Part shown: positions 11,724 through 16,497 of the stretch, in pieces
Numbering within the stretch: the first letter of the stretch is position 1
Layout: every line of letters starts with the position of its first letter
Origin: a virus
Length of the DNA: 20,264 bases
Strand: one strand, 5' to 3'
IMG/VR virus record: IMGVR_UViG_3300007541_000324
Span: 1 to 20,264 of that record
Program-made: the position numbers and the translations under genes
Notes under the pieces: model-generated
The model's input: only the letters and a program-made list of their open reading frames with translations
What the model was told of the DNA's origin: nothing
The model's database searches: none

Positions 11724-12442
11724 GCTGAAACCGTATTGACTTTATAACCCATTCCACTATGCACAGAACAATATGTATATAGCGTTGGAGCACCTATTGC
11801 TACATCAATTTGCGTGTAAGCACCCGCTGATCCCGGAGTCCCATTGTAGGTAACACCTGTCGTGTATTCTACTCCACCGCCATGTGTGCCATCGGGCGTT
11901 GTGGAAAAACGCAAAGGATGGCCTGAATTTGAGCTATCCGATTGATCATATCGATATATCAAACCTTCTGTTACATCTCGTCCCAAAAATCCCGGTTGCG
12001 CTCCGTCTTGATAATAAACGTTGCCCCCTCCCGGATTGGATACTGTGATTGAATACGTTGCTTCAATCGGAACTACACTAACCGTTCCTACACTCGTAGT
12101 TCCTGAAACTCCTGTAGGCTCGACAGTCACACTAGTGGCTACTTGAACTTGAACAGTCACGCTACCAACGCATCCTACACCCGTCACAGGACCTAGGGAT
12201 TCGTTTTCAACAACAGGGATGCCGACATAAACATTGTATGGCTCTACCCTGTCTGGTCTTGGATTGTATAGAGCTTGTGGGTCAGCTGGTACAGTTATAG
12301 GTTCTAATTGAGGGTGCTTTGGCTCGTAGCACTCTTGGCAAACCTTAAAACCAGTCCATTCAACTTGCATAGACAAATAAGGGTATTGCTGACCACAACG
12401 GTCGCAAATAGCATTTGACTGTACCCCTATTGCGTATGACAT
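11720..12442 (-). CDS. Three-part virion protein: zinc ribbon, fibre repeats, cupredoxin-like domain
   Basis: The 240-residue protein has an N-terminal zinc ribbon with C13-C16 (CDRCG) and C35-C38 (CQECY). It then has KHPQLEPITVPADPQALYNP and two repeat-like units at about 84-123 (GPVTGVGCVGSVTV, PTGVSGTTSVGTVSV) like those of the fibre at 9207-10307. Residues about 128-238 look like a small beta-sandwich, with GHPLRFS (H175) and YTYCSVHSGMGYKV (C225, H228, M231). The spacing His ... Cys-x2-His-x2-Met resembles the type 1 copper site of cupredoxins, where Cys-x2-His-x4-Met is usual in plastocyanin. Copper binding is an inference. The ATG at 12442 overlaps the previous stop (TAATG). Context is the connector-to-fibre region. 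Confidence 0.75.
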   Translation of the reverse strand: MSYAIGVQSNAICDRCGQQYPYLSMQVEWTGFKVCQECYEPKHPQLEPITVPADPQALYNPRPDRVEPYNVYVGIPVVENESLGPVTGVGCVGSVTVQVQVATSVTVEPTGVSGTTSVGTVSVVPIEATYSITVSNPGGGNVYYQDGAQPGFLGRDVTEGLIYRYDQSDSSNSGHPLRFSTTPDGTHGGGVEYTTGVTYNGTPGSAGAYTQIDVAIGAPTLYTYCSVHSGMGYKVNTVSA

Positions 12443-13122
12443 TACACAACCCTATAAAAATTTTGATTTGGCGTTAATTTTAAGTTAGCTCTATCTCTGT
12501 CTTCAGATGCCGCCCTTTCAAACTCCTCTTCATAAATAGCTTTGAGCATTTGAGTTCTATCTGGTGCTCTTTTCAAACTAATATAGTAAGCCAAGCCAGC
12601 GGCCAAACAAGGATAAAAACGGAAAGGCATTTCCAAAGTATTCTGTGCTGTATCCGCATCATCCATTCTTACCAATCTGTCATAAACCAGCGTATATGCT
12701 TGGTCTGGAGTAGGCCACACTTCAACTGTTGGGTTAATAGTGCGGTCAACATAAAATTCTGTAGGTCTAGCTTGTGTTAATTTACTAGGTATATTTAGAA
12801 ACTCTTGGCGACTAACTCTAGAAATAATAATATCTTGTTGATTACTAGCACCTGCGTTAGTTCTTATTACCGCTGACAAAATGTCAATTGTGTCTGCACC
12901 CAAGCTATACGAGGCAGTACCTTGAACTAAAGAAACAGTTGACTGCTCTATTGTCCAACGATTTAACCCCCTATTAGCCCAATCAGCCAGCATTAAATTC
13001 AGGCTACGACGAGCAGATTTTAGATCATAACCAGTTTTAGGCTCTAACCCACAACGCTCAAACGCTTCCTCAATGTACTCAGCTACATCAAGCTCAAAAT
13101 CTTTGGAACCAGAAACAGTCAT
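12442..13122 (-). CDS. Putative head-tail adaptor (P22 gp4-like or T7 gp11-like)
   Basis: This 226-residue protein shows a helical N-terminus (AEYIEEAFERCGLEPKTGYD, then LKSARRSLNLMLADWANRG) and the phrase LNRWTIEQSTVSLVQGTASY. A beta section follows (SLGADTIDILSAVIR, RPTEFYVDRTINPTVEVWPT), then a C-terminal helical domain (MPFRFYPCLAAGLAYYISLK). From memory this combination marks adaptor or tail-tube proteins of podoviruses that join the portal to the tail. The start ATG lies behind GAGGA with a suitable spacer and ten bases after the previous stop. It sits upstream of the connector-like and nozzle-like genes, as expected for a tail-completion set. Which of the two named models it follows cannot be decided here. 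Confidence 0.65.
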   Translation of the reverse strand: MTVSGSKDFELDVAEYIEEAFERCGLEPKTGYDLKSARRSLNLMLADWANRGLNRWTIEQSTVSLVQGTASYSLGADTIDILSAVIRTNAGASNQQDIIISRVSRQEFLNIPSKLTQARPTEFYVDRTINPTVEVWPTPDQAYTLVYDRLVRMDDADTAQNTLEMPFRFYPCLAAGLAYYISLKRAPDRTQMLKAIYEEEFERAASEDRDRANLKLTPNQNFYRVV

Positions 13123-14965: not shown

Positions 14966-15421
14966 TTAAGAAAGGTTATTGTTTTGGATATACAGAATAG
15001 TAACTGTTGCTACACCAGCAGTTCCGTCACCAGCAGTTGCAGTGAAGTCTGCTAATACTTGTAGGTCTGTAGTTCCAACATCAGTTGCTTCTGTGTCCAA
15101 CGTACCACGAGTAGTTCCAGCAGACTGAACACTGGTAGACGGGATAAACGCATCTGCATCAGCAGAAGTACCTACAACAACGGTAGATGCAGTTCCATCA
15201 TCATTAGCTGTAGTCACGTTAAGGATAGCGTCTACAATTTGAGAGTTAGCAGGAATGGTAGCAACTACTTGGTTTGCACTAGTCGCACCTGCAATGTCGA
15301 TAACTTTAGACTGCGCCATCAGAACGTAGCCGACGTTCGCAACATTAGTACCAACGGTAGATCCAGTAGTATCTTTGATAGTCCCAGCTTTGATAGGACC
15401 AGAGAAAGTGGTAGTACCCAT
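14966..15421 (-). CDS. Virion structural protein, first gene after the capsid terminator
   Basis: I choose ATG 15421 as start, giving 151 residues and MGTTTFSGPIKAGTIKDTTG. It lies nine bases after AGAGG, whereas an earlier ATG at 15442 has no good site. The protein continues GTNVANVGYVLMAQSKVIDI and a long beta-type region (QVVATIPANSQIVDAILNVT, DLQVLADFTATAGDGTAGVA) ending in VTILYIQNNNLS. No Cys or membrane segment occurs. The opening resembles, from memory, head-associated proteins in marine phages. It is the first gene after the terminator. The 107 bases upstream hold no convincing sigma-70 promoter, so it may depend on read-through or a phage-specific promoter. Confidence 0.75.
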   Translation of the reverse strand: MGTTTFSGPIKAGTIKDTTGSTVGTNVANVGYVLMAQSKVIDIAGATSANQVVATIPANSQIVDAILNVTTANDDGTASTVVVGTSADADAFIPSTSVQSAGTTRGTLDTEATDVGTTDLQVLADFTATAGDGTAGVATVTILYIQNNNLS

Positions 15422-15528
15422 AAAGAAACACCTCTTGCACAAGGATTCGCTTTACAGAAAGTGCAACATCAGGGGGCATAGACCTGTCTGCAAAGCTATT
15501 GTGATGCCCTTCTGTGAAAACTATACGC

Positions 15529-15560
15529 AAAAAAAGAGGGGGACACAAGTGTCCCCCTCT
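15529..15560 (-). terminator. Intrinsic terminator after the major capsid gene
   Basis: On the minus strand AGAGGGGGACA (15560-15550), a CTTG loop and TGTCCCCCTCT (15545-15535) form a perfect 11-bp GC-rich stem. Six U residues (15534-15529) follow directly. It starts 28 bases after the capsid stop codon, so it should limit transcription of the genes that follow. On the plus strand the stem is also followed by a T-run after GC, so it could act in both directions, though no plus-strand gene reaches it. Confidence 0.9.
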
Positions 15561-15568
15561 GCTTTTTT

Positions 15569-15584
15569 CGTTTCACGTGAAACG
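15569..15584. promoter_or_regulatory. parS-like palindrome (candidate ParB-binding site)
   Basis: CGTTTCACGTGAAACG is a perfect 16-bp palindrome placed four bases after the capsid stop codon and eight bases before the terminator stem. It matches 14 of 16 bases of the bacterial parS consensus TGTTTCACGTGAAACA; the only differences are the two outermost, symmetric bases. Neither strand has a U-run directly after it, so it is not a normal terminator. I saw no second CACGTG core in the window and no ParA or ParB gene. Binding by host ParB is inferred. Confidence 0.6.
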
Positions 15585-15588
15585 AATG

Positions 15589-16497
15589 TTACGCGCCTTG
15601 CGAACCGAACACACAACGTGGGTCAGATACACCAAAGCTGTAACGCTCACGGGCCTTATAGCGCACGTTGCCAGTCTCAAAATCACCTTCCATAGAAGTC
15701 TTGATTGGAGAACGAACAAAATGCTTGAAGCCGTTTGGCGCATCAGTCTTGATGAAGAAGCCGTCTGGGTCAGTGAGGAAGTGATTCACCACATAACCAT
15801 CTGGCAACATACCCATGCTCTTAAGAGCATTGATGTCGTTGTCCGCTGTAGCCGGACGCAGGTTAGAAGCCATCAGACGTTCTGCAACAAATTGCAGTGC
15901 TGGTGGAACAATCAACTTACGACCTTGCAAAGCGATTTTCAAACCACGCTCATCGATAAATGCCGCGATGTCAATCAATGATTGCTCGAGGGATGTCTCA
16001 TTGAGGTCAGCTTGAGTTGCAAGGGTGTTAGACAGGTTGCCACCACCCACAGTTGGGTGAGCGGTTGAGCAAAGCTCTACGCCATCACCAATAGGGAAGT
16101 TGCTATCAAAGGCATTGTTAAGAACAGATGCGGCTTTGACCTGCTTAGTGTTAGCCATACTGCGAGCCAAAGCACGAGTGTAGCGAGAGCTAAGTCGGTC
16201 GTAAAGGTTATCCTCTACGGCTTCTTCAGTAATCGCGAACGCCAATGCAATGGTTTCGTGAGTGTAGCGGGCTGTGTATGCTTCGTTTGCAGTATCGTAT
16301 GCGACACTTGCGCCTTCACCCTTAACAGGTGCTTGACCAAAGCCAGACAGCATTACTTCCTCTTCAAATGCGCGATCTGAAGATTCCGTCTCAAAGATTT
16401 CGGCATGCTCATTGTCATACCTGTCGTACTCCATACCGAACAGAGCGTTGAGTCCTGGCTCCAGTTCTTTGAGGAGTTGGGAACGAGTTATAGCCAT
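15589..16497 (-). CDS. Major capsid protein, HK97 fold
   Basis: The 302-residue protein starts MAITRSQLLKELEPGLNALF. It contains an early acidic segment (ETESSDRAFEEEVMLSGFGQ), then TARYTHETIALAFAITEEAV and VEDNLYDRLSSRYTRALARS, the long spine-helix region. GDGVELCSTAHPTVGGGNLS and LKIALQGRKLIVPPALQFVA match Mu gpT-type and related major head proteins. The end is KARERYSFGVSDPRCVFGSQ. There is no signal or membrane segment. The ATG follows GGAGAATAGGAA, a strong site suited to high expression. Upstream are scaffold-like and decoration-like genes, the usual order. The strong terminator just after the gene fits separate control of capsid output. The assignment is firm. Confidence 0.9.
   Translation of the reverse strand: MAITRSQLLKELEPGLNALFGMEYDRYDNEHAEIFETESSDRAFEEEVMLSGFGQAPVKGEGASVAYDTANEAYTARYTHETIALAFAITEEAVEDNLYDRLSSRYTRALARSMANTKQVKAASVLNNAFDSNFPIGDGVELCSTAHPTVGGGNLSNTLATQADLNETSLEQSLIDIAAFIDERGLKIALQGRKLIVPPALQFVAERLMASNLRPATADNDINALKSMGMLPDGYVVNHFLTDPDGFFIKTDAPNGFKHFVRSPIKTSMEGDFETGNVRYKARERYSFGVSDPRCVFGSQGA

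Follow-up and report, generated by a model that had tools for sequence, protein, structure and literature searches.

A candidate orphan parS site after the capsid gene of a lytic-type phage of water bacteria

We analysed a 20,264-base stretch of viral DNA (hereafter, the window), which is a fragment of a phage structural module with its genes on the minus strand. The capsid protein encoded here shares 73–74% identity with its counterparts in Pelagibacter phage HTVC023P and phage DSL-LC04, and 42% with those in Caulobacter phages such as GB2A. The gap following the capsid gene contains a parS-like palindrome and an intrinsic terminator, and the features of this region are as follows.

15589 to 16497, minus strand: major capsid protein gene, with its stop codon 4 bp from the 16-bp site.
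15567 to 15586, no strand: 20-bp perfect palindrome TTCGTTTCACGTGAAACGAA, whose minus-strand RNA folds as a stem with a 4-nt loop (sequence, folding).
15569 to 15584, no strand: 16-bp parS-like site, with outer C..G where the consensus has T..A (match to consensus).
15570 to 15583, no strand: parS core GTTTCACGTGAAAC, two inverted GTTTCAC half-sites (sequence; same core in relatives).
15535 to 15560, minus strand: intrinsic terminator hairpin AGAGGGGGACACTTGTGTCCCCCTCT after the capsid gene, a stem and then T7 on the minus strand (15529–15535).
14966 to 15421, minus strand: downstream gene, encoding a cement protein homologue 76% identical to the annotated one of phage DSL-LC04.

The open reading frame of the cement protein homologue can be read from a TTG codon at 15442, and its likely start is the ATG at 15421. 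In the transcript, the end of the capsid gene at 15589 is followed by the palindrome (15586–15567) with A6 at its edge, the terminator stem (15560–15535), and T7; the transcript thus ends in two hairpins, of which the palindrome is the upstream one. The plus strand of the terminator hairpin carries T6 (15563–15568), which together with T7 on the minus strand suggests that the terminator could work bidirectionally. The terminator is found in nearly all relatives, whether or not the palindrome is present.

An earlier sequence-only reading had described CGTTTCACGTGAAACG at 15569–15584 as a perfect 16-bp palindrome sharing 14 of 16 bases with the bacterial parS consensus. Position and count are exact, and both differences from the consensus, TGTTTCACGTGAAACA, are outermost bases; the palindrome is indeed perfect, but its full extent is 20 bp. 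Its placement in a non-coding gap just after the capsid gene is also correct, since the local genes lie on the minus strand, with 15589 as the last base of the capsid gene. The same reading had set aside a terminator role because there is no U-run. An intrinsic terminator has a G+C-rich stem directly followed by a T-run, and the earlier reading is right that no such run comes after the palindrome itself, whose next bases on the transcribed strand are A6. However, the strong terminator at 15535–15560, which does have this arrangement, had been overlooked, and the exclusion was too strong.

The 14-bp core is exactly that of parS, formed by two half-sites placed back-to-back. Half-sites are defined as GTTTCAC or GTTCCAC, both of which are bound in Pseudomonas, and P. 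aeruginosa ParB recognises GTTTCAC (PMC10419367). Over 16 bp the site is within two mismatches of TGTTTCACGTGAAACA, the rule applied in PMC10197239, although this is a general bacterial consensus that may not be the host's own. Proximity to parAB and oriC on the same replicon, which is usual for parS but not strictly defining, is not seen here. Dinucleotide shuffles predict 0.15 matches with three or fewer mismatches per window, and three were observed; the other two (at 672 and 5046) are weak and fall within open reading frames.

Capsid relatives were gathered by protein similarity, and further loci were added later by pattern search. The three nearest capsid relatives (93–94% identity) have TCGTTTCACGTGAAAC at the same spot, and the core is identical and in the same place in L004, L005, L006, L263, L267, L271, L284, L299, and L294. 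L263, L267, L271, L284, and L299 came from pattern searches, and some are the same contigs as L004, L005, or L006 or close copies of them; L294, also found by pattern search, is more distant (73%). The outermost bases of the 16-mer vary among relatives (C..G, C..A, T..G, T..C), whereas the inner 14 are invariant, with the core having been the search pattern for some of the aligned loci but not for L004, L005, and L006. At four-fold degenerate sites of the capsid gene, the window and its near relatives are 45–53% identical (44–76% over all pairs, and 44–53% for the more diverged pairs), so low an identity that neutral sequence is near saturation for most pairs. In L005 the core persists although both the terminator and the downstream gene have changed. 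Within this clade the palindrome often reaches past the parS site, to as much as 22 bp. The genome of L006, a 60-kb relative, contains one copy.

The proposal that related phages should carry the palindrome after the capsid gene is borne out in all near relatives examined, but distant ones mostly lack it. Relatives at 89% capsid identity or less are mostly without the site at this place, while the terminator is nearly always there. No site within one or two mismatches was found in most relatives, near-complete genomes and named isolates among them. The relatives are metagenomic and many contigs are short, which makes absence elsewhere in those genomes uncertain. Another clade (L045, L046, L050, L051, L058, and L061) has a perfect palindrome of its own, CGAACAATTGTTCG, in this gap between capsid stop codon and terminator; in L069 and L083 it is degenerate. 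It resembles a LexA-type box, and is perhaps another DNA-binding site.

Recurrence was assessed in 2.1 Mb of DNA selected by capsid similarity alone with three different capsid queries, using as controls all 420 palindromes obtained from permutations of the half-site GTTTCAC, parS included. The parS core has five exact matches at three unrelated places: the capsid gap, a gene boundary in L055, and a position upstream of GroES in L548. The other 419 palindromes have three matches altogether, and only parS recurs at several places in the family. About 0.007 exact matches are expected per palindrome, which gives a Poisson probability of 6e-8 for three places and 3e-5 for two, with the window's own place left out. 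L530 has TGTTCCACGTGAAACA at the place corresponding to that in L548. A Roseobacter-phage-like set (set C) contained no parS in 0.86 Mb.

Family contigs found through the motif extend the range of contexts. Among the matches listed, the 14 bp occur inside a GroES-like gene (EEDVSRET, VSRET frame); they also occur inside the gene next to a GroES-like gene (L097, NVSRET frame), at gene starts (MFHVK..., FHVK frame), and at gene boundaries, and L156 has five copies. The GroES copies sit in a variable N-terminal stretch, and V.RET is present in only five of 174 distinct GroES-like proteins, exactly those with the DNA site, which rules out a peptide (VSRET) as the explanation of these copies. Since the same 14 bp appear in different frames or in non-coding sequence, what recurs is the DNA, rather than a peptide or an RNA hairpin. 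On the capsid tree the places fall into separate groups, implying at least six changes. Conservation, recurrence, and the comparison of frames together indicate a sequence maintained by selection as DNA. Separately, five parS copies lie within about 1 kb in viral contigs at L156:10536–11461 and L111:2658–3443; the L156 contig encodes distant capsid and GroES relatives of those in the window and has no ParB_N domain.

The core is also common across IMG/VR as a whole, where it is present in at least 120 contigs, as against 22 and 20 for two control palindromes of the same composition. Among the matches listed, 63% of parS copies have the consensus T..A flanks, and 52% lie outside open reading frames of at least 100 amino acids, compared with 19% for the two controls (p = 1e-4). 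Contigs bearing ParB were rejected as the explanation for parS in viral contigs, since ParB_N was found in only five of the 37 longer parS-bearing contigs among the matches listed. Part of this signal will nevertheless be plasmid-like phages and chromosomal pieces. A third control, GTTCTACGTAGAAC, fell within the family in 47 of 120 contigs among the matches listed, almost always at a single conserved coding position in the adaptor gene. This position (VLRRT) accounts for about 40 contigs with adaptor homologues of window positions 12442–13122 (for example L377, L411, and L428), which we take as a codon coincidence in a very abundant family. Because the family is so abundant in IMG/VR that GTTCTACGTAGAAC matched it too, we rejected the family's share of parS-bearing contigs (13 of 119 among the matches listed) as stand-alone evidence, and rely on the capsid-selected counts.

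A separate cobavirus-like group (L142, L230, L262, L278, and L315) carries a perfect TGTTTCACGTGAAACA immediately behind the stop codon of a small gene; a terminator follows 8 nt later, so that the arrangement matches the one in the window. L315 was tested and, over the ribonucleotide reductase region, its DNA resembles that of Roseobacter and Lentibacter phages; the other four were grouped with it by their common parS context. The 57.8-kb contig of L278 has three perfect copies and no ParB_N. Seven named phages similar over the ribonucleotide reductase region have no site within two mismatches. Among isolated phages related to the window, HTVC027P and Alcaligenes phage vB_Af_QDWS535 each have a good site. 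In HTVC027P, CGTTTCACGTGAAACA at 16412 lies in an open frame giving ...HQYAFHVKH... (flanks read by eye), and we count it as weak because it may be a protein coincidence. The QDWS535 site, TGTTCCACGTGGAACA, is a single piece of evidence and lies within a short annotated open reading frame; both sites may be coding coincidences. A 168-kb contig of the bacterium Salinisphaera hydrothermalis C41B8 (L341) encodes a 55% capsid relative together with neighbouring structural genes, which perhaps belong to a prophage of the window's family.

The sequence-only reading had noted that the window encodes no ParB, and we likewise found no ParB_N domain there. A scan for further copies and ParB-like genes, which it had proposed, gave a single copy of the site and no ParB_N in the 60-kb relative L006. 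ParB_N was also not found in HTVC027P, QDWS535, and the others searched, a result that depends on relatives, the window being a 20-kb fragment, and that applies to proteins recognisable as Pfam ParB_N, as a dissimilar ParB would be missed. A cognate ParB on the same phage, as in phage ParABS cassettes, was thus not found in the window and the relatives searched. L006 has genes for a DNA polymerase, a thymidylate-synthase-like protein, a 5-hmdU DNA kinase, and a terminase, and no integrase was seen among the 20 of its proteins scanned. The thymidylate-synthase-like protein, a glycosyltransferase, and the 5-hmdU DNA kinase lie together at L213:12290–15452 of this relative. This set of genes points to hypermodified thymines; with the kinase present, thymines may be so altered that ParB is hindered.

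The palindrome might instead act as RNA, as the first hairpin of the two-hairpin 3' end of the capsid transcript, where it would pause polymerase or shield against 3' exonucleases, with its likeness to parS being coincidental. A strong terminator comes soon after it, and its stem has 7–8 bp. Counting outwards from the core, the second and third pairs are conserved in almost every member, and one double change (TT/AA versus AT/AT) is seen there; a minority of relatives have unrelated small hairpins or palindromes in the gap, such as CGAACAATTGTTCG. Tandem-hairpin intrinsic terminators likewise consist of a stem-loop and then a terminator stem with a T-run. However, the first stem in the window is AT-rich, lacks its own U-run, and does not vary in sequence. 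Several members have a broken or wobble pair beside the core, yet none departs from the 14 core bases, loop included, and this also applies to the loci found independently of the pattern (L004, L005, and L006). The loop ACGT is itself self-complementary, as a dimer site needs but an RNA loop does not, and the same 14 bp are found elsewhere in the family in coding DNA and far from terminators. A general requirement for an RNA hairpin in the capsid gap is ruled out, since significant folding was detected there in only about 29% of the 58 relatives. Although it is the strongest of the alternatives, we consider a purely RNA-based explanation unlikely.

A conserved DNA palindrome does not reveal which protein reads it, and the site could belong to another dimeric DNA-binding protein, such as a phage or host regulator or a Noc-like relative of ParB; the clade that keeps CGAACAATTGTTCG at the same spot would fit this. 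We regard such a protein as an improbable reader, because the core is that of parS base for base, copies in viral contigs mostly have the full consensus with its T..A flanks (among the matches listed), and they share no promoter context, being found downstream of genes, within genes, and between genes. A chance palindrome, for which one could cite the single copy in the window and the many relatives without it, is very hard to reconcile with three unrelated places in 2.1 Mb and conservation at near-saturating divergence, and the capsid divergence of the near relatives argues against assembly duplicates of one genome.

The site is therefore more than chance, as the sequence-only reading had held, because it is conserved in close relatives and recurrent in the family. 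The parS assignment of that reading gains from conservation in the near clade and from varied frames and gaps in which parS, alone of 420 palindromes, recurs, and is weakened by the lack of a site at this place in most same-capsid relatives beyond the nearest clade. From two perfect half-sites in the parS arrangement, and the gene content of a relative in which no integrase was seen, we infer an orphan parS that borrows host ParB. The site is probably a real docking site for host ParB in a DNA phage of water bacteria. With moderate confidence, and judging from sequence comparisons, we propose that it is an orphan parS of host type on a lytic-type phage genome, which would load host ParB clamps on phage DNA. 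Against this, the extended palindrome and the good RNA hairpin beside the terminator are not needed by parS alone, and these features make an RNA role, alone or additional, possible.

ParB recruits SMC. It also binds parS and closes there into a CTP clamp, which slides and engages ParA (PMC12704722). The window's site is like the chromosomal parS of bacterial ParABS systems in its 14-bp core, its palindromic form, and its non-coding location, but it is on a phage genome, in single copy, with no parA or parB nearby and not at oriC, and its binding is putative. Phages and plasmids with ParABS cassettes encode the partition proteins themselves and use a site sequence specific to them. These cassettes (P1, N15, and extrachromosomal mycobacteriophage prophages; PMC7157519) also place a centromere-like site on phage DNA, but the window's site matches the type found on host chromosomes, and the searches for a ParB_N domain to go with it were negative. 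In the P22 carrier-state association, phage DNA is reported to be kept and asymmetrically inherited before lysogeny, a physiology that a phage parS might serve, and the ParB/parS pair there is apparently a means to follow phage DNA (PMC4697819). The open-access literature searched, with subscription journals and preprints outside the search, contained no report of parS on such phages.

As an orphan parS, the site would be bound by host ParB after entry or replication of the phage DNA. The bound ParB would close as a CTP clamp and slide onto flanking DNA, and host ParA (and SMC) would then treat the phage genome like a small chromosome. The most likely benefit would be a phage genome kept or positioned at the nucleoid and inherited when infection stalls in slow-growing hosts (a carrier state), while sequestering ParB with one site seems weak. 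In the window's lineage, the site would have been placed behind the capsid gene, in one of the few stretches that do not have to encode protein, and there it would double as an extra hairpin ahead of the terminator. More tentatively, the pattern of recurrence may mean that lytic-type podoviruses of a widespread group have repeatedly and independently gained a bacterial centromere site, even in variable coding stretches, and would borrow host ParB-CTP clamps (and ParA/SMC) for DNA placement or inheritance with no partition protein of their own.

Most phages known to exploit the chromosome-segregation machinery are temperate or plasmid-like and bring partition genes of their own. If our interpretation is correct, a host centromere site alone would be a minimal way for a lytic-type phage to capture ParB, and it would offer a clue to the persistence or placement of such genomes in water bacteria that divide slowly.
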